From Actinobacteria bacterium IMCC26256 (GTDB lineage Bacteria > Actinomycetota > Acidimicrobiia > IMCC26256): a DNA stretch of 64,000 bases. Under the pieces are notes generated by a model, which was not told the DNA's origin, made no database searches, and was given only the letters and a program-made list of their open reading frames with translations. The position numbers and the translations under genes are program-made. Shown in pieces: positions 15,906 to 63,957 of the stretch (positions are counted from its first letter, which is position 1; every line of letters begins with the position of its first letter). The stretch spans positions 248,001-312,000 of the forward strand of contig CP011489.1 in NCBI GenBank assembly GCA_001023575.1. Direction: 5' to 3'.

Positions 15906-17285
15906 ATGACCGTTCGAATTCGCCTGCACGACACACTTCTTGGCCGCAGGGTCAACCTCTCTCCCCGGGTCCCTGGGAGCGTCTCTATCTATGTCTGTGG
16001 ACCTACCGTCTATGACGCTCCGCACCTTGGGCACGGCCGCACCGCTGTTGTATTTGACAGCATTCGCCGCTACTTAACGTGGAGCGGACTCAGCGTCATG
16101 TTTGTGAGCAACATCACTGACATTGAGGACAAAATAATTGGCCGCGCTGCGCGTGAAGGCCTTACTGAGTCCGAGGTAGCGCGCACATACGAAGATGCCT
16201 ATTGGTTCGAGATGGATCGTCTCGATGTTCTTCGACCAGACGAGACGCCCCATGCAACTCAGTACATCTCCGAGATGCTCGAATTAATAGCGGAGTTAAT
16301 CGAGAAGGATCATGCCTACGTAATTGACGGGCAGGGTGTGTACTTCAATGTGCCTTCGTACGACGGATACGGCGAACTCTCGAACCGCAGGCTTGATGAT
16401 CTTCTTGAAGGTGCAGGCTCGCGCGTTGAGATAGATACTGCGAAGAAGAGCCCTGTTGATTTCGCTCTATGGAAAGCGGCAAAACCAGGAGAGCCTGATT
16501 GGGAGTCTCCATGGGGGAGCGGCCGACCAGGGTGGCACATCGAGTGCACTGCGATGTCCCTCCTACTCCTCGGCGAGGGATTTGATATTCACGGTGGCGG
16601 GGATGACTTGACCTTTCCGCACCATGAGAATGAACGCGCACAGGCTGAGGCCGCGGGGCACCCCTTCGCACGCCATTGGATCCACTCTGGGATGGTGATG
16701 GTCGGCGGAGAGAAGATGTCGAAGTCGCTCGGTAACTTCACCACACTCGGAGAGGCAATCGACGCTCATGGCGGAAGGGCAGTTCGCGTCGCTGTACTGC
16801 AGACTCATTATCGTGCCCAGACCGAACTCGGCCCGCTTGAGATCGAGGCTGCAGGGAAAGCTGTTGAGCGCCTCGATGCGCTAGCAAGGCGTGCGAGCGC
16901 CAATGACCTGCCTGCAGACTGCTCAACCGATACTGCATCAGTTGAAGCGTTTACCGCAGCCATGGATGAAGACTTTGGAACCCCTGCCGCACTCGCCGTT
17001 GTATTCGATGCAATTAGCACTGCAAACTCTGCAATCGATGCTGGAGACTTATTCACCGCTGGGACCTTCGCAGCTACGGCTTTTGAGCTTGCAGGAGCGC
17101 TTGGGGTAATGGTGAGGACGCCTGAGCGCGGCGACGATGCAGATGAGATTGATGCATTGGTGCTGCAGCGTGAAGAGGCGCGAGCGTCACGAGACTTTGC
17201 TGGAGCCGACAGGATCAGAGACAAACTCGCTCAGCGCGGTGTCGTGCTCGAGGACGGACCTAGCGGTACGCAGTGGCACCGATGA
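15906..17285 (+). CDS. cysS: Cysteinyl-tRNA synthetase
   Basis: CysS charges tRNA-Cys. It is a class I synthetase with the HIGH-type motif in [16 protein letters not shown] (HLGH), the KMSKSLGN motif, and zinc-ligand candidates in the N-terminal Cys, the HIECTAM segment and [11 protein letters not shown] at 15906 is chosen (459 residues); a TTG at 15882 is in frame with an AAAGG about 9 bases upstream and cannot be excluded. It overlaps rlmB by four bases. The mycobacterial ispF-cysS-rlmB order is the same. Confidence 0.95.
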
Positions 17286-18268
17286 GTAATGACCGGAGCG
17301 GCGGAGAGCGCGGAAGTAATAGTTCCGGGAATAGATCAGGAAATAGTCGCGGAAATAGTGCCGGAAATAGAGCAGGTAATAGAGCAGGTAATAACTCCGG
17401 ACGAGGTGGTTATCGCGACGGCGGGCGTAAGGGTTCTAATGAGCAGCGAGGAGACTTCTCAGACCGCGGCCGTGGGCGTGACTCTGATGGATTTGACGCA
17501 TACTCCTCGCAGCCGCCAGAGCGCGAGCGTGGGTTAGGCGGAGACCAAGTTGAGGGCGTAAATGCTGTGCGCGAGTTGCTACGCGCCGATCGAAGAGATG
17601 TAAGGGAGTTGCTCATCTCGGTAGGGAGAGAGAATTCTCCGGCGATCGAAGAGATTATTGAGCTCGCTCGCGAGCAGCGCGTGCGTGTCCGTGAGGTCGG
17701 TGCGACTCAGATGGAGGCGGTTGCTCGATCAGAGTCGCCACAAGGTGTGATTGCTCGCGCCTCCTCGATCGAGCCCGTTGATATTGACGCATTGCTAGAG
17801 GATCCGAAAGCGTTCATTGTTGTGCTCGATGGTGTGACTGACCCTGGCAACCTAGGGGCAGTTATGCGAACTGCTGAGCAGGCAGGTGCGACAGGTTTCG
17901 TACTCCCTAAGCACAGAAGCGCCCGACTTACTCCGTCTGCGATGAAGGCAGCAGCAGGTGCCGCTGAGTGGCTTCCGATTGCACAGACCGCAGGTGTGCC
18001 GTCATTTCTTGAGAGGGCGAAGCGGGCTGGAGTTTGGTCAGTTGGATTAGATGCTGACGGGGACGTAGATGTAAATGAGATCCCAGTCGCCGATGCTCCG
18101 ATTGTGATCGTGCTCGGGGCAGAGGGGAGCGGGCTATCTCGGCTCACTCGTGGAAGATGCGACCTCATAGCGAGCATCCCAACCTTTGGGCACCTAGACA
18201 GTCTCAATGTCTCAGCCGCCGCCGCCGTCGCCTGCTTCGCAGTTGCCAGGCGTCGCGGCCGAGAGTGA
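17282..18268 (+). CDS. rlmB: 23S rRNA (guanosine-2'-O-)-methyltransferase RlmB-like, TrmH/SpoU family
   Basis: This SPOUT-family 2'-O-methyltransferase probably modifies 23S rRNA. The SpoU motifs are DGVTDPGNLGAVMRTAEQ, IVLGAEGSGLS and IPTFGHLDSLNVSAAAAV, forming the knotted SAM site. A substrate-binding domain precedes them (about residues 95-165, VEGVNAVRELL). Residues 1-85 are unusual: a disordered Gly/Asn/Arg/Ser extension with six tetrapeptide units of GN type, encoded by 12-bp tandem repeats. The ATG overlaps the cysS stop. The last codons and stop are the first copy of a 26-bp tandem repeat that runs on for four more copies downstream. Confidence 0.9.
   Translation: MSNDRSGGERGSNSSGNRSGNSRGNSAGNRAGNRAGNNSGRGGYRDGGRKGSNEQRGDFSDRGRGRDSDGFDAYSSQPPERERGLGGDQVEGVNAVRELLRADRRDVRELLISVGRENSPAIEEIIELAREQRVRVREVGATQMEAVARSESPQGVIARASSIEPVDIDALLEDPKAFIVVLDGVTDPGNLGAVMRTAEQAGATGFVLPKHRSARLTPSAMKAAAGAAEWLPIAQTAGVPSFLERAKRAGVWSVGLDADGDVDVNEIPVADAPIVIVLGAEGSGLSRLTRGRCDLIASIPTFGHLDSLNVSAAAAVACFAVARRRGRE
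17324..17395 (+). repeat. 12-bp tandem repeat encoding GN-type tetrapeptides
   Basis: About six degenerate 12-bp units (for example GGAAATAGTGCC and GGTAATAGAGCA) encode residues 15-38 of the RlmB-like protein as [S/R/A]GN[R/S/N]. The period is a multiple of three, so changes in copy number would keep the frame. Confidence 0.8.
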
Positions 18269-18381
18269 GGGTTGGGCGTCGCGGCCGAGAGTGAGGGTTG
18301 GGCGTCGCGGCCGAGAGTGAGGGTTGGGCGTCGCGGCCAAGAGTAGGGGTTGGGCGTCGCGGCCAAGAGTAAGGGTTGGGC
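18252..18381 (+). repeat. 26-bp tandem repeat spanning the rlmB stop codon, five copies
   Basis: Five head-to-tail 26-bp units start at 18252, 18278, 18304, 18330 and 18356, with core GTCGCGGCC and GGTTGGGC. Copies 1-3 are identical; copies 4 and 5 differ by a few bases (CAAGAGTAGG, CAAGAGTAAG). The first unit contains the last codons of rlmB and its TGA (18266-18268). There are no spacers, so it is not a CRISPR array. Open frames on the minus strand here are only translations of the repeat. Confidence 0.95.
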
Positions 18382-18462
18382 GTTAAATATCTCCCCGCTC
18401 TCGGGAAAGTAACGGGTTCGAGACTACGGTTTGGGACCACCGCGGGCCTCGTGCTTGTGAAT

Positions 18463-18539
18463 GCCGGAGTAGCTCAGTTGGCCAGAGCAGCCGCCTTGTA
18501 AGCGGCAGGTCGTCGGTTCGAGTCCGACCTTCGGCTCCA
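18463..18539 (+). tRNA. tRNA-Thr (anticodon TGT)
   Basis: A 77-base cloverleaf. The acceptor stem GCCGGAG pairs with CTTCGGC (one G-U). The D arm is in GCTCAGTTGGCCAGAGC. The anticodon loop CTTGTAA gives TGT, reading ACA threonine codons. The T loop is GTTCGAGTC and the CCA end is encoded at 18537-18539. It lies 81 bases after the 26-bp repeat array. Confidence 0.95.
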
Positions 18540-22250: not shown

Positions 22251-22471
22251 GAGTCTACGGCGCAGGCTCCCCACGTTGCGATCGAAGGCGGGGGCGTGGC
22301 AGACTTCACATCAAGAACAACGCGCTCATCGAGAGCGGCTGAGGGACGGGCCCTATGAAGCCGCGGCAACCAACGCTTATGCGTCAGGTGCCAATGCCCG
22401 AACGATGAGCAGCCCGAGAGCGACAGGGACACCCCTTCCGCTCGAGGCGCTCAAGAGCGCGTCGAGAACGA

Positions 22472-22511: not shown

Positions 22512-23756
22512 GTGACTTTCGTAACGGCACTTAAGTGTCGAGAGTGTGGTCGGGAGTATCCGATCGAGCCCTCGTATACCTGTTCATGGTGTTTTGGTCC
22601 CCTAGAGGTTGCCTACGACTACGACGCAATCCGCGCCTCAGTATCGAGAGAGAGCATCGCAGCGGGGCCGTTGAGTGTCTGGCGTTATGCAGATCTTCTC
22701 CCATCGGAGCGCCAGGAGTCAGTAGACCTCGGTGCCGGTTTTACTCCGCTAGTACGAGCACCCAGACTCGCTGCAGAGCTTGGACTCGGCGAACTTTGGA
22801 TCAAGAACGACACGCTCAATCCAACAAACTCCTTCAAGGATCGCGTTGTTAGCGTCGCGCTCTCGAAGGCACTCGAGTTTGGTTTCAAGGTTGTGGCATG
22901 CGCCTCGACAGGGAACCTCGCTAACTCTGTTGCAGCGCACGCAGCGCACGCTGGTCTTGAGTCTTATGTCTTTATTCCCTCGAACCTTGAGGCCGGGAAG
23001 ATCGTGACTACTGCGGTCTATGGCGGAAACCTCGTAGCAGTAGATGGCAACTACGACGACGTAAACCGCCTATGCGCGGAACTAGCCGGTACATATCCCT
23101 GGGCTTTTGTGAATGTCAATGTACGCCCTTATTACGCAGAAGGATCTAAAACACTTGCTTTCGAGACTGCCGAGCAACTTGGGTGGCAGGCGCCTGACCA
23201 TGTTGTTGTGCCAATCGCTAGTGGTTCTCAACTAACCAAGATTCACAAAGGGTTCCACGAACTCTTTGAGGTTGGTCTGCTTGATGAAGACCCATCGGTT
23301 CGCGTCTCTGGTGCTCAGGCGCTTGGTTGCTCTCCGGTGGCGACGGCGTTTCTCGAGGGAAGCGAAGTTATTAAACCTGTTAAGCCCGACACAATTGCGA
23401 AGTCGTTGGCGATCGGTAACCCTGCAGATGGCTACTTTGCAATCGATGCAGTGCGTAATACTGGTGGCGCGATGGCAGCAGTGACCGACGACGAAATTGT
23501 TGATGCAATTCGTCTCCTTGCTCGCACGGAGGGAATCTTTGCTGAGACGGCAGGTGGAGTCACAGTGGCAACACTCTCGCGCCTCGCTGCCTCTGGTGTG
23601 ATTCGCCCAGACGAGCGCGTCGTTATCTACATCACGGGCCACGGGCTCAAGACGCTTGAGGCTGTCTCGCCTGTGGTCGGACCAACTGCAACTATTAGGC
23701 CAAATATCGAGGCGTTCCATGACGCATTCCCGGCATTAGAGGAGAGCTCCAAATGA
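22512..23756 (+). CDS. thrC: Threonine synthase
   Basis: This PLP enzyme converts O-phosphohomoserine to threonine. The 414 residues begin with a zinc-ribbon-like segment (CRECGREYP ... CSWCFGP) seen in long-form threonine synthases. The PLP lysine is in NPTNSFKDRV, and the phosphate-binding region is ACASTGNLANSVAAHAAHAG. Start GTG 22512 follows AAGGAG by 8 bases. Its stop overlaps the start of the downstream sulfur-carrier gene by four bases (ATGA), so the two are coupled. The neighbouring carrier raises the question of whether some homologues use sulfur donors; threonine synthase is by far the most likely activity. Confidence 0.93.
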   Translation: MTFVTALKCRECGREYPIEPSYTCSWCFGPLEVAYDYDAIRASVSRESIAAGPLSVWRYADLLPSERQESVDLGAGFTPLVRAPRLAAELGLGELWIKNDTLNPTNSFKDRVVSVALSKALEFGFKVVACASTGNLANSVAAHAAHAGLESYVFIPSNLEAGKIVTTAVYGGNLVAVDGNYDDVNRLCAELAGTYPWAFVNVNVRPYYAEGSKTLAFETAEQLGWQAPDHVVVPIASGSQLTKIHKGFHELFEVGLLDEDPSVRVSGAQALGCSPVATAFLEGSEVIKPVKPDTIAKSLAIGNPADGYFAIDAVRNTGGAMAAVTDDEIVDAIRLLARTEGIFAETAGGVTVATLSRLAASGVIRPDERVVIYITGHGLKTLEAVSPVVGPTATIRPNIEAFHDAFPALEESSK

Positions 23757-25267: not shown

Positions 25268-26686
25268 ATGGCTACTAATCGAATTCTTGGTACGAGGTTG
25301 ACGCTGCAGTTGCGTCGCGGCTTGGTCTTGCTCTCCGCTGGTGTGATTGCGTGCACCGCAGTCATAGGCCTGCGCTCTAATGCGCAGCCGGCGGGTGCGA
25401 CAGCGTTTGCGAAGATTGTCTCTTGGGGCGACGACGAATATCGGCAGGTGTCGGAAATGCCGTCGGGCTCAGACTTCACGCAGGTCAGTCTCGGCGAGCG
25501 GCACTCGGTAGCGTTGCGTACTGACGGGAGTCTGGTTTCTTGGGGTGAACCCTCAGGCGGGATTTATGGTCAGGTCTCAGATACGCCTTCCGGAACCGAC
25601 TTCACCCAGGTAAGCGCAGGCCGCTTCCACTCGGTGGCGTTGAAGTCGGATGGAAGTCTCGTCTCTTGGGGTATGGATATATATAGCCAAGTCTCGAGCA
25701 CGCCTTCAGGCACCGACTTCACGCAGGTAAGCGCGGGCTACTACTCCTCGGTGGCGTTGAAGTCCGATGGGAGTCTCGTCTCTTGGGGCTATGACGCTTA
25801 TGGGCAGGTCGCGAGCACGCCTTCTGGCACGGACTTTGAGCAAGTAGACGCCGGCGGGTACCACTCGGTGGCGTTGAAGTCGGATGGGAGTCTCGTCTCT
25901 TGGGGCTGGGACGGCTACGGGCAGGTCTCGAACACGCCTTCTGGCAGCGACTTCGCGCAGGTAAGCGGCGGCATGATGCACTCGGCTGCGGTGCGTGCGG
26001 ATGGGAGCATTGCCTCCTGGGGTTATAACGGAAACGGTGAGGTCACTTACTCGCCGGGTGGCAATGACTTCGCGCAAGTGAGCGCTGGCTACTACACCAC
26101 AGTGGCGTTGAAGACTGATGGGAGCATCGTCTCATGGTGGTACAGCGGCTACGGCCCGGTCTCGAGCAAGCCATCTGGGACAGGCTTTACTCACGTGGAG
26201 AACGGCTACGGATTAACTGCTGCGGCACTTAAAACCGTTGAGCCTGCGGTTGTGGTGCGCATCGGCGATGTGAGTTTGAACGAGGGCAGCGGCCCAGCAG
26301 GGACCACTGCGTCTTTGCTCTACGGGACAGATCGTGCAGTAAACGCTGCGTTATGTGTCTGGTATACGACAGAGAATGATGGTGCGACAGGTGCCGATAA
26401 GTTCACTGCCTTCGATGGAACGCAGGACTACCTCAAACTTGGTGTGACTAAACCCAAGTTTTCTTTGCTGGGAGCTTCGAAGACCGCAGGGAAGATCTCC
26501 ATGAAGGTGAACTACGACGCGGTCGCGGAGTCGGATGAAGTCTTCATGGTCAAGATCACGAAGGTCACCGCGCAGGAGAGCGGAAAGTGTGTCTCAACAT
26601 CAACTGCGGATCCGCGGGTTAATCTCGCTCGGGCCAACGGTTTCGTTCAAATCCTTGATGACGACACTCCGGTTCCCCAGGAGTAA
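25268..26686 (+). CDS. Secreted RCC1-type beta-propeller protein with Calx-beta-like C terminus
   Basis: A signal peptide (about residues 1-45: basic start, then LVLLSAGVIACTAVIG) is followed by seven repeats of 39 residues with the pattern SWG..YGQVS.TPSGTDFTQVSAG..HSVALKSDGSLV. This is the RCC1/BLIP-II-like family, which folds as a propeller. The last 130 residues (VRIGDVSLNEGSG to FVQILDDD) look like a Calx-beta domain, a calcium-binding adhesion module. ATG at 25268 is preferred over upstream starts because it begins the signal peptide. Function is unknown; an exported binding or adhesion protein is likely. The stop lies 45 bases from the convergent operon. Confidence 0.82.
   Translation: MATNRILGTRLTLQLRRGLVLLSAGVIACTAVIGLRSNAQPAGATAFAKIVSWGDDEYRQVSEMPSGSDFTQVSLGERHSVALRTDGSLVSWGEPSGGIYGQVSDTPSGTDFTQVSAGRFHSVALKSDGSLVSWGMDIYSQVSSTPSGTDFTQVSAGYYSSVALKSDGSLVSWGYDAYGQVASTPSGTDFEQVDAGGYHSVALKSDGSLVSWGWDGYGQVSNTPSGSDFAQVSGGMMHSAAVRADGSIASWGYNGNGEVTYSPGGNDFAQVSAGYYTTVALKTDGSIVSWWYSGYGPVSSKPSGTGFTHVENGYGLTAAALKTVEPAVVVRIGDVSLNEGSGPAGTTASLLYGTDRAVNAALCVWYTTENDGATGADKFTAFDGTQDYLKLGVTKPKFSLLGASKTAGKISMKVNYDAVAESDEVFMVKITKVTAQESGKCVSTSTADPRVNLARANGFVQILDDDTPVPQE
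25424..26233 (+). repeat. 117-bp coding tandem repeats of the RCC1 protein
   Basis: About seven 117-bp units encode the 39-residue propeller blades. The inner copies (about 25560-25960) are nearly identical at DNA level over long stretches such as GCGTTGAAGTCGGATGG, which suggests recent duplication or gene conversion. Open frames on the minus strand here are shadows of the repeats. Confidence 0.8.
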
Positions 26687-28214: not shown

Positions 28215-28331
28215 AGTGGTCTCCTAGATATTTAGAGTGGTTTTTGTTTCGAGTGGTATTTGTTTAGAGGCGTATTCGTGTCGTAATAACTCTGTGTCGA
28301 ACCTCGACTTAGCGGTTTGTTGATCAGGCGC

Positions 28332-45006: not shown

Positions 45007-46335
45007 ATGCCAAAAACTCTTGATGACCCGACCGCTGAGGTAACCGAGGTACTGCAGGCCTTTATTCGTAATGCTTGCGTCAATGACGGCACGCCTGACT
45101 CAGGTGGGGAGGTCCGTAGCGCGGATCTTGTGACGGGCTATCTCGAAGGATCGGGTCTCGAGCTCGAGTACTACGAGCCGCACCCCGGGCGCCGCAGTGT
45201 GCTTGCAAAGATTGAGGGCTCTGACCCAACCGCCCCGGGGCTAATGCTCATGGGGCATACAGATGTTGTGCCGGTAAACGACTCAGGCTGGACGCATGAT
45301 CCGTTCGGTGGCGAACTGATCGATGGAGTTGTGTGGGGGCGCGGGGCGGTTGACATGCTCAACCTCACAGCCTCAATGATGGTTGCGTTTAAGCATCTTG
45401 CTGACTCAGGATTTAAACCGCGCGGCACTCTCTCTTATCTTGCAGTCGCTGACGAAGAAGCATCAGGTACATGGGGTGCAGAGTGGCTTCTTGAGAACGA
45501 ACTAGATGCGGTTCGCACAGAGAATGTGATTACCGAGTCTGGTGGATTTCAGATGGGGAGCCCGGGCGGTATTCGTCTCCCTGTAATGGTAGAGGAGAAG
45601 GGTGCGCTCTGGACCAAGCTGACAGTTCGCGGCACGCCTGGGCACGGGTCGCAGCCGCACCGAACAGATAACGCGCTTCTAAAGGCCGCAGAGATCGTTA
45701 CTCGTATCGGCAAGTACCGCCCACCTGCAAAGGTGGGGAATACTTGGCGAAGTTTCGTGGAGGGCATGCAACTCCCTCCGGAGCTTGCAGATCCAGAGAA
45801 GTTGGATGCTGTGATTGAGGGTCTGCCTATTGGGGCGAGCCGCCTCTTCCACTCGTGTACCCATACAACGATGTCTCCCAATGTTGCGAGAAGCGGGTCA
45901 AAGGTAAATGTCATCCCCGATCATGCAGAGGTACTCATTGATATTCGCGCGTTGCCGGGCGAGAGCGCCGAGGATGTGCGTTTGATGCTTCAGGATGCAT
46001 GCGGAGATCTCTGGTCAGAGATCGAACTCACGATTAGGGATGACGTGGCGACTGCCTCGCCGATCGATACTCCTCTGTGGGATTCGTTGGCGAGAGTCTC
46101 GGGGCGCTTATGTGAAGGCTCTGCGCTTGTTCCGATGATGATGGTGGGCGGTACTGATAACCGCTACTTCCGTCGCGCCGGTGCAGTTGGGTATGGATTC
46201 GGACTATTTAGTGAGCGTCTGAGATTTGAAGATTTTGCATCCATGTTTCATGGGCATGATGAGCGAGTTGACCAAGAATCACTACGTCTATCAACAGAGT
46301 TATGGACGGCTCTAGCCCACGACTTCCTGACCTAG
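45007..46335 (+). CDS. M20-family metallopeptidase
   Basis: A 442-residue peptidase of the M20/ArgE-DapE-CPG2 group. The zinc-binding motif is LMGHTDVVPV, the bridging aspartate follows in WGRGAVDMLN, catalytic glutamates are in VADEEASGTWG and TESGG, and the dimerisation domain spans about 200-310 (TPGHGSQPHRTDN start). The substrate is unknown; amino acid or dipeptide release is typical. It follows the MBL gene by 33 bases. Its stop is 5 bases from the start of a tandem-repeat array that belongs to the convergent PAC2 gene. Confidence 0.92.
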   Translation: MPKTLDDPTAEVTEVLQAFIRNACVNDGTPDSGGEVRSADLVTGYLEGSGLELEYYEPHPGRRSVLAKIEGSDPTAPGLMLMGHTDVVPVNDSGWTHDPFGGELIDGVVWGRGAVDMLNLTASMMVAFKHLADSGFKPRGTLSYLAVADEEASGTWGAEWLLENELDAVRTENVITESGGFQMGSPGGIRLPVMVEEKGALWTKLTVRGTPGHGSQPHRTDNALLKAAEIVTRIGKYRPPAKVGNTWRSFVEGMQLPPELADPEKLDAVIEGLPIGASRLFHSCTHTTMSPNVARSGSKVNVIPDHAEVLIDIRALPGESAEDVRLMLQDACGDLWSEIELTIRDDVATASPIDTPLWDSLARVSGRLCEGSALVPMMMVGGTDNRYFRRAGAVGYGFGLFSERLRFEDFASMFHGHDERVDQESLRLSTELWTALAHDFLT

Positions 46336-46340
46336 ACCTC

Positions 46341-46406
46341 CTTTATCCAAGACCTGCTTTATTCAAGACCCTGCCTTATTCAAGACCTGCCTTACTCAAG
46401 ACCCTG
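46341..46406 (-). repeat. 16/17-bp tandem repeat spanning the PAC2 gene stop codon, four copies
   Basis: Four units (46341-46356, 46357-46373, 46374-46389, 46390-46406) alternate 16 and 17 bases, so the higher-order period is 33. On the minus strand each reads CAG(G)GTCTTGAxTAA-like, and the copy at 46390-46406 contains the last codons and TAA stop (46392-46394) of the PAC2 gene. Later copies degenerate. Confidence 0.9.
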
Positions 46407-47276
46407 CTCTCTTAGGAACTCCTCGAGCTCTGCGGCGATGTCGTCACCTGTCGGGATGCCGTCAGGGTTATCGGAGAGAGGATCCATAAACAGATCGTCG
46501 TCGTCCTCCGACTGCTCCGCTAAGCGCGCTACGTACTCACGTAGGTCGTCATCATCTGCAACAAAGGTATCGATGCGCGCTCTCCATGCTGCAGACTGCA
46601 CGCGCAACTCTCCGAGGCTGATCGGTATGTCTGTGATATTTGAGAGTGCCTCAAGTAAAGCAACCTGCGCTGGAGGGTTCGGTGGGGTAGCTACGTAGTG
46701 AGGCACTGGAGCCCAGAGGGATGCTGATGGAATCCCCGACGACCTGAGAACGTCGTGGAGAACTCCAACAATTCCAGTAGGGCCTTCATAGCGCGATCGT
46801 GTCATCCCAAGGCGGTCCATCAGTGCAGGCTCTGTTGTAGATCCAGTGATCTTTACGACCTGATTATGTGCTGCATCGGCGAGCAATGAACCAAAGGTCA
46901 CCGCTAATTCGCACCCCAACTCGCCGGCTGCTTCAAGAATCGCGTCGCAGAACTCGCGCCATCTCATGTGAGGCTCGGGGCCGAGGACGAGAACCAAGTC
47001 TCGAGATGATCCAGGGACTCGCACCGCGAGTAGGCGCGTACCGGGCCAGCGCACTTCGCGGGTTACACCATCTGTAATAACAACTGTCGGTCGCAGCGCC
47101 TGAAAATCAACGTGACGCTCTGGGTCAATATAAGCAAACTGCTCAGCGTCATACTGAGTTGCGAGTCGCTCTACTGCGTCTGTTGCCGCATCTCCAGCAT
47201 CGTTCCAACCAGTAAAGGCTGCAACGAGAACTGGATGACGCAGAACGGGGTGATCTTCCCAGACGAGGCTGCTCAT
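46392..47276 (-). CDS. PAC2-family protein (proteasome-assembly-chaperone-like)
   Basis: A 294-residue protein of the archaeal/actinobacterial PAC2 family (VAAFTGWNDAGDAATDAVERL, GSLLADAAHN, YEGPTGIVGVLHDVLR, VPHYVATPPNP). The C-terminal 50 residues are acidic and probably disordered (SEDDDDLFMDPLSDNPDG). Eukaryotic homologues assist proteasome assembly; the role in bacteria is unclear. Its stop codon sits within a tandem-repeat array that continues downstream. It has 75 bases to the next gene on the same strand. Confidence 0.9.
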   Translation of the reverse strand: MSSLVWEDHPVLRHPVLVAAFTGWNDAGDAATDAVERLATQYDAEQFAYIDPERHVDFQALRPTVVITDGVTREVRWPGTRLLAVRVPGSSRDLVLVLGPEPHMRWREFCDAILEAAGELGCELAVTFGSLLADAAHNQVVKITGSTTEPALMDRLGMTRSRYEGPTGIVGVLHDVLRSSGIPSASLWAPVPHYVATPPNPPAQVALLEALSNITDIPISLGELRVQSAAWRARIDTFVADDDDLREYVARLAEQSEDDDDLFMDPLSDNPDGIPTGDDIAAELEEFLREQGLE

Positions 47277-59911: not shown

Positions 59912-60031
59912 GAATCTTCACAAACAAACGCATTAAAATTTCCTCACTCCGGCAAGGCGATCTGGTTCAGAGACAGACTCAGCGGCGGTAGCGTTACTCT
60001 AACTAAAGAAGTGGTTTCTGATCAGGAGGAC

Positions 60032-60925
60032 ATGGTGGCGAGTTCCCAGACAATTACTAAAGCGGTTATTCCCGCGGCTGGGCTCGGTACCCGATTTCTC
60101 CCAGCGACAAAAAGCCAGCCCAAAGAGATGCTGCCAATCGTCGATAAGCCTGCGATTCAATATGTAATCGAGGAGGCAGTTCGCGCAGGGCTTACAGATA
60201 TTCTCGTTGTCACAGGTCGCGGCAAGCGCGCTATTGAGGATCACTTCGACCGCAATTTTGAGCTTGAGTATTACCTAGAGCAGCAGAGCAAGACAGACCT
60301 CCTGCGCGAGGTACAGCTCACCTCGGAGATGGCCGACATCCATTACATACGCCAGCGTGATCCGCTAGGTCTTGGGCATGCGGTATCGGTAGCGCGTGAG
60401 CACGTTGGTAACGAGCCCTTCGCGGTATTGCTCGGCGATGACATCATGGTGGACGACTCGAAATTGTTGCTCTCGATGATTGATATTCATGCGCGCTACG
60501 GGCGCTCTGCGCTTGCTCTCAAGAAGGTTCCCCAAGAGAGCATCTCTTCATATGGCTGTGTTGAGCCGGAGCCAGTTCATGATGGGCTCGTGCAGGTTCG
60601 TTCAATTGTCGAGAAGCCCAAGCCCGAGGATGCTCCATCGGATCTAGCGGTAATCGGTAGGTATGTATTTACCCCAGAGATTTTCGATGCGCTAGACCGT
60701 ATTCAGCCGGGTGCCGGCGGGGAGCTTCAACTCACAGATGCAATTTCTCTGCTCTTAGAGACACAGACCGTCTACGGATGCGTCTTCGAGTCAGGGAGAT
60801 ACGACATAGGCCAGAAGATTGACTTCCTGAGGGCCAATGTTGAGCTCGCGCTCGACCGCCCTGATCTCGGCCCTGAGGTTGCCGAGTTCCTTGTGCAGCT
60901 CGTCAAGGACCGGGGTCTTATTTAG
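60032..60925 (+). CDS. galU: UTP--glucose-1-phosphate uridylyltransferase
   Basis: GalU makes UDP-glucose from UTP and glucose-1-phosphate, supplying glycosyl donors including those of GpgS. Core motifs: AVIPAAGLGTRFLPATKSQPKEMLP (nucleotide loop), DKPAIQYVIEEA, RQRDPLGLGHAV, LLGDDIM and VEKPKPEDAPS. AGGAGG (60024-60029) lies just upstream; ATG 60032 has a short 2-base spacing and GTG 60035 a better one, so either may be used. About 297 residues. The last codons and stop form the first copy of a 15-bp tandem repeat. Confidence 0.94.
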   Translation: MVASSQTITKAVIPAAGLGTRFLPATKSQPKEMLPIVDKPAIQYVIEEAVRAGLTDILVVTGRGKRAIEDHFDRNFELEYYLEQQSKTDLLREVQLTSEMADIHYIRQRDPLGLGHAVSVAREHVGNEPFAVLLGDDIMVDDSKLLLSMIDIHARYGRSALALKKVPQESISSYGCVEPEPVHDGLVQVRSIVEKPKPEDAPSDLAVIGRYVFTPEIFDALDRIQPGAGGELQLTDAISLLLETQTVYGCVFESGRYDIGQKIDFLRANVELALDRPDLGPEVAEFLVQLVKDRGLI

Positions 60926-60954
60926 AGGCGTCTTATTTAGAGGCGTCTTATATA
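60915..60954 (+). repeat. 15-bp tandem repeat spanning the galU stop codon
   Basis: GTCTTATTTAGAGGC occurs at 60915-60929 and 60930-60944 exactly, with a partial third copy at 60945-60954. The first copy contains the last codons of galU and its TAG (60923-60925). Confidence 0.9.
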
Positions 60955-63876: not shown

Positions 63877-63957
63877 TGTTTTAAATGTTGTGAGTGTTTT
63901 AAATGTTGTGACTGGTTTAGATGTTGCGAATGTTGTAAATGTTGTGAGTGTTGTTTA
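63877..63957 (+). repeat. 18-bp tandem repeat downstream of moaC
   Basis: Four and a half imperfect 18-bp units (63877, 63895, 63913, 63931, 63949) of the TGTTTTAAATGTTGTGAG type, with an inner 9-bp echo (TGTT..AAA / TGTTGTGAG). The array starts 36 bases after the moaC stop and does not include it. Open frames crossing it encode only Cys-rich repeats. Confidence 0.88.

Follow-up and report, generated by a model that had tools for sequence, protein, structure and literature searches.

Tandem arrays at gene ends in the window

In the chromosome of Actinobacteria bacterium IMCC26256 (GCA_001023575.1, contig CP011489.1), short tandem arrays overlap the stop codons of several genes, and we investigated them starting from the 26-bp array at the end of rlmB. 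The window is the whole 64,000-nt stretch analysed here, positions 248,001 to 312,000 of the forward strand (G000:C1:248001-312000), and coordinates are those of the window unless another locus is named. The genes and arrays concerned are:

17273..18268, forward strand: rlmB, SpoU/TrmH-family 23S rRNA ribose methyltransferase (open reading frame, ORF; Pfam SpoU_methylase and SpoU_sub_bind)
18249..18383, forward strand: 26-bp tandem array, 5 full copies plus 5 nt, with the rlmB stop in copy 1 (Tandem Repeats Finder, TRF; pattern search)
18463..18539, forward strand: tRNA-Thr(TGT), downstream of rlmB
46334..46407, no strand assigned: tandem array of about 4 copies with a 16/17-bp unit, in the gap that separates the convergent M20 peptidase (ending at 46335) and PAC2 genes
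46392..47276, reverse strand: PAC2-family gene, with its stop (46392-46394) within this second array (ORF, Pfam)
60011..60925, forward strand: galU-like nucleotidyltransferase, TAG stop at 60923-60925 (ORF, Pfam)
60915..60951, forward strand: 15-bp tandem array, 2.5 copies, 100% matches, with the galU TAG in copy 1 (TRF)

The rlmB array is reported by TRF at 18249-18383 with a period of 26, 5.2 copies, 96% matches and a score of 235. It is composed of five 26-bp copies of GGCGTCGCGGCCGAGAGTGAGGGTTG followed by 5 nt of a partial sixth. A pattern search, for which no hits are expected in shuffles, places the copies at 18249, 18275 and 18301 (0 mismatches), 18327 (3 mismatches) and 18353 (2 mismatches). 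The rlmB TGA (18266-18268) sits inside copy 1; copies 1-3 are identical and carry TGA, and copies 4 and 5 have TAG and TAA at that place. An earlier note, made from the letters alone, had described a 26-bp array with the rlmB stop in its first copy and the two distal copies as the most diverged, and on this both methods agree with it. The arrays it listed are real, with positions that shift by 2-3 nt and, for rlmB, a 5-nt partial sixth copy that it had missed. The rlmB unit occurs at a single location in the 2,461,858-bp (2.46 Mb), single-contig genome. No Rfam element was found in the array region, and the only matches in the window are the tRNA-Thr and, elsewhere, a SAM riboswitch at 22323-22411, upstream of a gene at 22512-23756.

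The same note had pointed to a like arrangement at PAC2 (16/17 bp) and galU (15 bp), and both arrays were recovered by TRF. The PAC2 array has a period of 16/17, with 33 fitted by TRF too, and it fills the convergent gap: the PAC2 stop, on the reverse strand, is inside the array, and the far edge touches the stop of the M20 peptidase gene (46333-46335). The galU period is a multiple of 3, which brings the stop back in the same frame. An array with units about 80% like those of the PAC2 array (TTATCAAAACCCTGC) lies at G000:C1:2110603-2110651 (L146), beside a sensor-kinase-like ORF.

Other arrays in the window do not overlap a stop codon:

28231..28269, no strand assigned: 16-bp array between two genes, touching neither codon (intergenic control case)
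63877..63952, forward strand: tandem array of 4.2 copies with an 18-bp unit, 35 nt beyond the stop of a MoaC-family gene, no overlap

A coding repeat is also present at 25565-26178, where a 117-bp unit, with a period divisible by 3, is repeated in tandem within an RCC1-type-repeat gene.

Stop-overlapping arrays across the genome

The scan sample comprised 1.252 Mb (51%) of the IMCC26256 genome (G000) in stretches, in which 1156 genes were called with a purpose-written hexamer-based caller, the gene calls outside the window being automatic. TRF arrays with a period of at least 7 and a score of at least 40 were kept, their boundaries being uncertain by a few bases. In this sample 240 arrays pass the cut-offs, 126 of them outside coding sequence. 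Shuffled gap sequences yield 2.4 arrays at score 40 and 0.2 at score 50, versus 118 and 76 in the real ones.

Stop-overlapping arrays are over-represented in this genome. Under a uniform placement model, which allows a unit at any position where no gene is destroyed, 12.2 of the 120 gap-assigned arrays would be expected to overlap a stop and 34 do so; at score 60 the numbers are 6.2 and 21. Start-overlapping arrays are not enriched among the same 120 (10 observed versus about 13 expected). The earlier note had held that its proposal would fall if arrays over stops were no more common than arrays at random positions, and they exceed random placement. The stop is located in copy 1 (offset below one period) in nearly all stop arrays. 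Purely intergenic arrays make up 78 of the 120 gap-assigned, and divergent gaps contain 26 arrays, 23 of them purely intergenic. Within coding sequence, the periods are strongly filtered by frame: at score 50, residues 0, 1 and 2 modulo 3 are represented by 70, 3 and 1 arrays, and by 9, 9 and 9 among stop arrays.

We also searched for a unit dispersed among the arrays, a candidate that was rejected: 73 pairs share 8-mers versus 33 in shuffles, and short motifs such as GGTCTTGA or CCCTAAATA recur at a few sites, with no common unit. Enrichment of k-mers 3' of genes gave terminator-like CTTCGGG hairpins instead of array units. As a separate observation, CGAACTTCGGGT is enriched just 3' of stops in the genome sample and is likely a terminator hairpin with a UUCG loop.

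Copy number in related genomes

Copy numbers were compared between sister species, with one genome per species, for arrays from the window and from five 20-kb stretches, where orthologues could be found. The rlmB array is present in two genomes of the same genus, G001 and G003. It has 4.2 copies in G001 (versus 5.2 here), all of TGA type, and TAA-type copies in G003, whose contig ends within the array. G001, G002 and more distant relatives share the order rlmB-tRNA-Thr; the array is absent from G002 (69% RlmB identity) and from the more distant relatives sampled outside the genus. The galU array has 2.5 copies here and 5 in G001 (L137), with none in G002, and the PAC2 array has about 4 copies here and 8 in G001 (L145). 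The variation that the earlier note had proposed to look for across strains or reads is seen between species, and it is consistent with slippage. Since genomes of the genus that were assembled independently have the same arrays at different copy numbers, the arrays are not an assembly artefact of IMCC26256.

Stop arrays and intergenic arrays behave alike between species. Length or copy number differs at most of the stop arrays and most of the intergenic arrays that were compared with orthologues: the stop array L089:82 measures 62 bp versus 97 and 45 bp in the G001/G003 comparisons, and the intergenic arrays L007:2328, L042:2835 and L089:4655 likewise differ in copy number in G001/G003. Some stop arrays are absent in sisters (L042:14692 and L032:15467), and many arrays persist across species at about 5-15% nucleotide divergence.

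The end of rlmB itself differs among these genomes, with ...GRE-TGA in G000 and G001 and ...GQE-TAA in G003. The unit types follow the same division, being TAA-type in G003, TGA-type in G001 and of both types in G000. This mixture suggests that unit types were swapped within the array, stop included. It thus appears that turnover of the array has changed the rlmB stop between TGA and TAA in sister species, and coding copy 1 would have shared in that turnover.

Some observations concern the same loci. In G001, an insertion of about 7 kb lies in the M20/PAC2 gap (contig C262; L142, L145). About 166 bp of the PAC2 3' end are repeated on its far side, so the insert is flanked by two copies of the gene end. 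A same-genus rlmB with its array (94% identity) is found in CAMDSG010000046.1 (L265), a contig whose title names a 'Bifidobacterium breve' metagenome-assembled genome; this organism name looks wrong.

Origin of the arrays

We suggest that the arrays are probably ordinary slippage-born minisatellites, or variable-number tandem repeats (VNTRs), that accumulate where they are least harmful and are tolerated at gene ends. Tandem duplications of about 10-30 bp would arise genome-wide through replication slippage or unequal exchange, and the same events would add, remove and convert existing copies. Inside genes, selection would remove most of these duplications, sparing those with a period divisible by 3. 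Where a duplication spans a stop, the native last codons and the stop would be retained in copy 1, so that the upstream protein would stay the same and the sequence downstream would only be displaced. Gene ends, and the next tens of bases, would be among the most tolerant places, and arrays would therefore gather there. If so, the arithmetic of gene ends, where a stop-spanning duplication is coding-neutral, predicts stop-overlapping arrays with no special function, and this gene-dense genome illustrates cleanly where short tandem duplications come to rest. The arrays would also serve as strain markers for a little-studied actinobacterial lineage.

In line with this reading, in co-directional gaps, where the pre-duplication footprint was counted, we found 2.28 stop-spanning arrays per kb, versus 1.35 in the 3' 30 nt, 0.73 in mid-gap, 1.28 in the 5' 30 nt and 0.52 for start-spanning arrays. 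Several results weigh against tolerance as the whole cause. Relative to the adjacent 30 nt, the stop-spanning rate is 1.7, 2.1 and 3.3 times as high at scores 40, 50 and 60 (P = 0.08, 0.04 and 0.02). This borderline-significant excess is not predicted by pure tolerance, unless the tail of the coding sequence is freer than the 3' untranslated region. Its size depends on the normalisation: a first density profile gave a flat 3' zone without a stop peak, normalising by unit length gives 2.5-5 fold, and the pre-duplication footprint, judged the fairest, gives 1.7-3.3 fold. The share of arrays at stops is equal in perfect and diverged ones (0.27, 0.30 and 0.29), a flat course where an age-dependent selective filter might have raised it. 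Moreover, TGA is under-used at array stops (6/38 versus 417/1111, P = 0.006), with TAA and TAG favoured. The 40 nt around array stops are AT-richer (0.535 versus 0.481, P = 0.0006), which may be a cause or a consequence. The modest extra bias to stops may reflect this local AT-richness.

A mutational hotspot at gene 3' ends, where RNA polymerase pausing, termination or replication collision would raise duplication by slippage or repair, could explain the residual excess over the adjacent zone, and also why perfect, presumably young, arrays are as stop-biased as old ones. Two further results favour it. The stop-spanning rate in co-directional gaps is about 4 fold above the start-spanning one (P = 0.0008), and co-directional gaps of 0-20 bp have the fewest stop arrays per 100 gene ends (1.6, versus 5.0, 3.8 and 6.8 in larger gaps), as expected if transcript ends matter. 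However, arrays may be kept out of short gaps by the harm of displacing the downstream start. Convergent gaps, which contain only gene ends and are the expected termination sites, show little or no stop excess (10 versus 5.7, P = 0.03; 5 versus 4.1, P = 0.4), and arrays in intergenic DNA remote from gene ends outnumber the stop arrays and are equally labile. Neither an order-level relative (G040) nor a class-level one (G059), 400 kb of each, has a significant stop excess, these comparators being few and GC-richer. We consider such a hotspot unlikely. A stop-centred process of the genus, linked to the termination of transcription or translation, which would make gene-end duplications faster and whose turnover would keep rewriting stops and C-terminal residues, seems no more probable to us. 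The stop excess and the swapping of the rlmB stop are modest effects. The idea in the earlier note of a process that specifically duplicates gene ends is not supported, given the predominance of purely intergenic arrays, their similar variation, the small size of the stop excess and its near absence in convergent gaps.

It is somewhat less likely still that the extra copies were selected for a function, whether to back up the stop codon, to form a 3' RNA element or a terminator, or to insulate the next gene as a spacer. Array genes do have a second in-frame stop within 6 codons more often (14/34, 41%) than other genes (144/664, 22%; P = 0.012), and the persistence of many arrays in diverged species could also be read in this way. 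Repetition alone, however, would by our estimate give about 48% (1/3 + 2/3 x 0.22), so selection for backup stops is not needed; the periods of stop arrays show no frame preference, and rlmB would reach its next in-frame stop 26 codons further on. The backup stops offered by the earlier note were rejected on these grounds. Its other suggestion, a 3' RNA structure, fared no better: stop arrays do not fold clearly more strongly than unit-permuted controls (mean z -0.37, standard deviation 1.34; rlmB z -1.09), and no site resembling a rho-independent terminator (GC-rich hairpin plus T run) was found at the rlmB array, so an intrinsic terminator was rejected as well. In addition, stop arrays are conserved no better than intergenic ones, some are lost in sisters, and G002 has neither the rlmB nor the galU array.

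Chance, gene calling or assembly as the source of unreal repeats or overlaps is very improbable and largely refuted already, for shuffles yield almost no arrays, the arrays recur in separately assembled species and most array genes are long and well scored, even though genes outside the window were annotated with a home-made caller, on half of the genome, and the G003 contig breaks off within the rlmB array, which is common for assemblies at repeats.

Tolerated minisatellites also agree with what is known elsewhere, since stop-overlapping repeats of this kind are already described in other bacteria. In Yersinia pestis, 10 of 88 VNTRs overlap stops, 6 overlap starts and 48 are intergenic; the authors observe that a change of copy number at a stop leaves the ORF intact, and they also note low diversity at stop-overlapping loci and allow for some constraint (PMC3689786). 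The likeness includes short periods (16-19 bp and longer), the stop inside the repeat and in-ORF periods divisible by 3 (PMC3689786). On the other hand, copy number was typed there within the species and here between sister species, and our 34 of 120 non-coding arrays at stops, a higher share than the 10 of 64 non-coding VNTRs in Y. pestis, were tested against a placement model. The IMCC26256 arrays share with minisatellites the head-to-tail units in direct repeat, in the size range of about 7-60 bp, the copy variation between related genomes, here seen between species, and the in-gene periods divisible by 3.

In Borg elements, the first repeat unit can likewise lie in gene ends and ORF repeats are multiples of three (PMC9879509), but those repeats are perfect, A-rich and carried by extrachromosomal elements of archaea, whereas the present copies are diverged and on a bacterial chromosome. 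Some sets of the TAACTGA direct repeats of marine Beggiatoaceae overlap the stop of the upstream gene (PMC4679880). They differ in being one heptamer genome-wide, mostly before start codons, while here each array has its own unit and period and start overlaps are not raised. The MIRU of mycobacteria are described as mobile elements of one family that insert at start codons and contain an ORF (PMC12548453). Tandem units at gene junctions with both neighbours intact resemble them at L019:8146 and L028:17448, where each array covers both an upstream gene's stop and the start of the following gene in a MIRU-like arrangement. Unlike MIRU, a single family dispersed at many junctions, the rlmB unit is found at one place only, and units of different arrays share few 8-mers.

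Longer and dispersed repeats were also seen in the scan. Arrays with periods of 65 and 66 bp occur at L028:17448-17621 and L027:3473-3642. A 1.2-kb sequence at L012:5733-6900 and L032:630-1791, present about 20 times or more in G001 and some 15 times in G003, could be like an insertion sequence or belong to a large gene family, and in L012 two stop arrays lie at its edges. A 60-bp dispersed repeat similar to repetitive extragenic palindromes (REP-like) was found at L089:19327-19394, with matches on either strand to many sites of G001 and G003.
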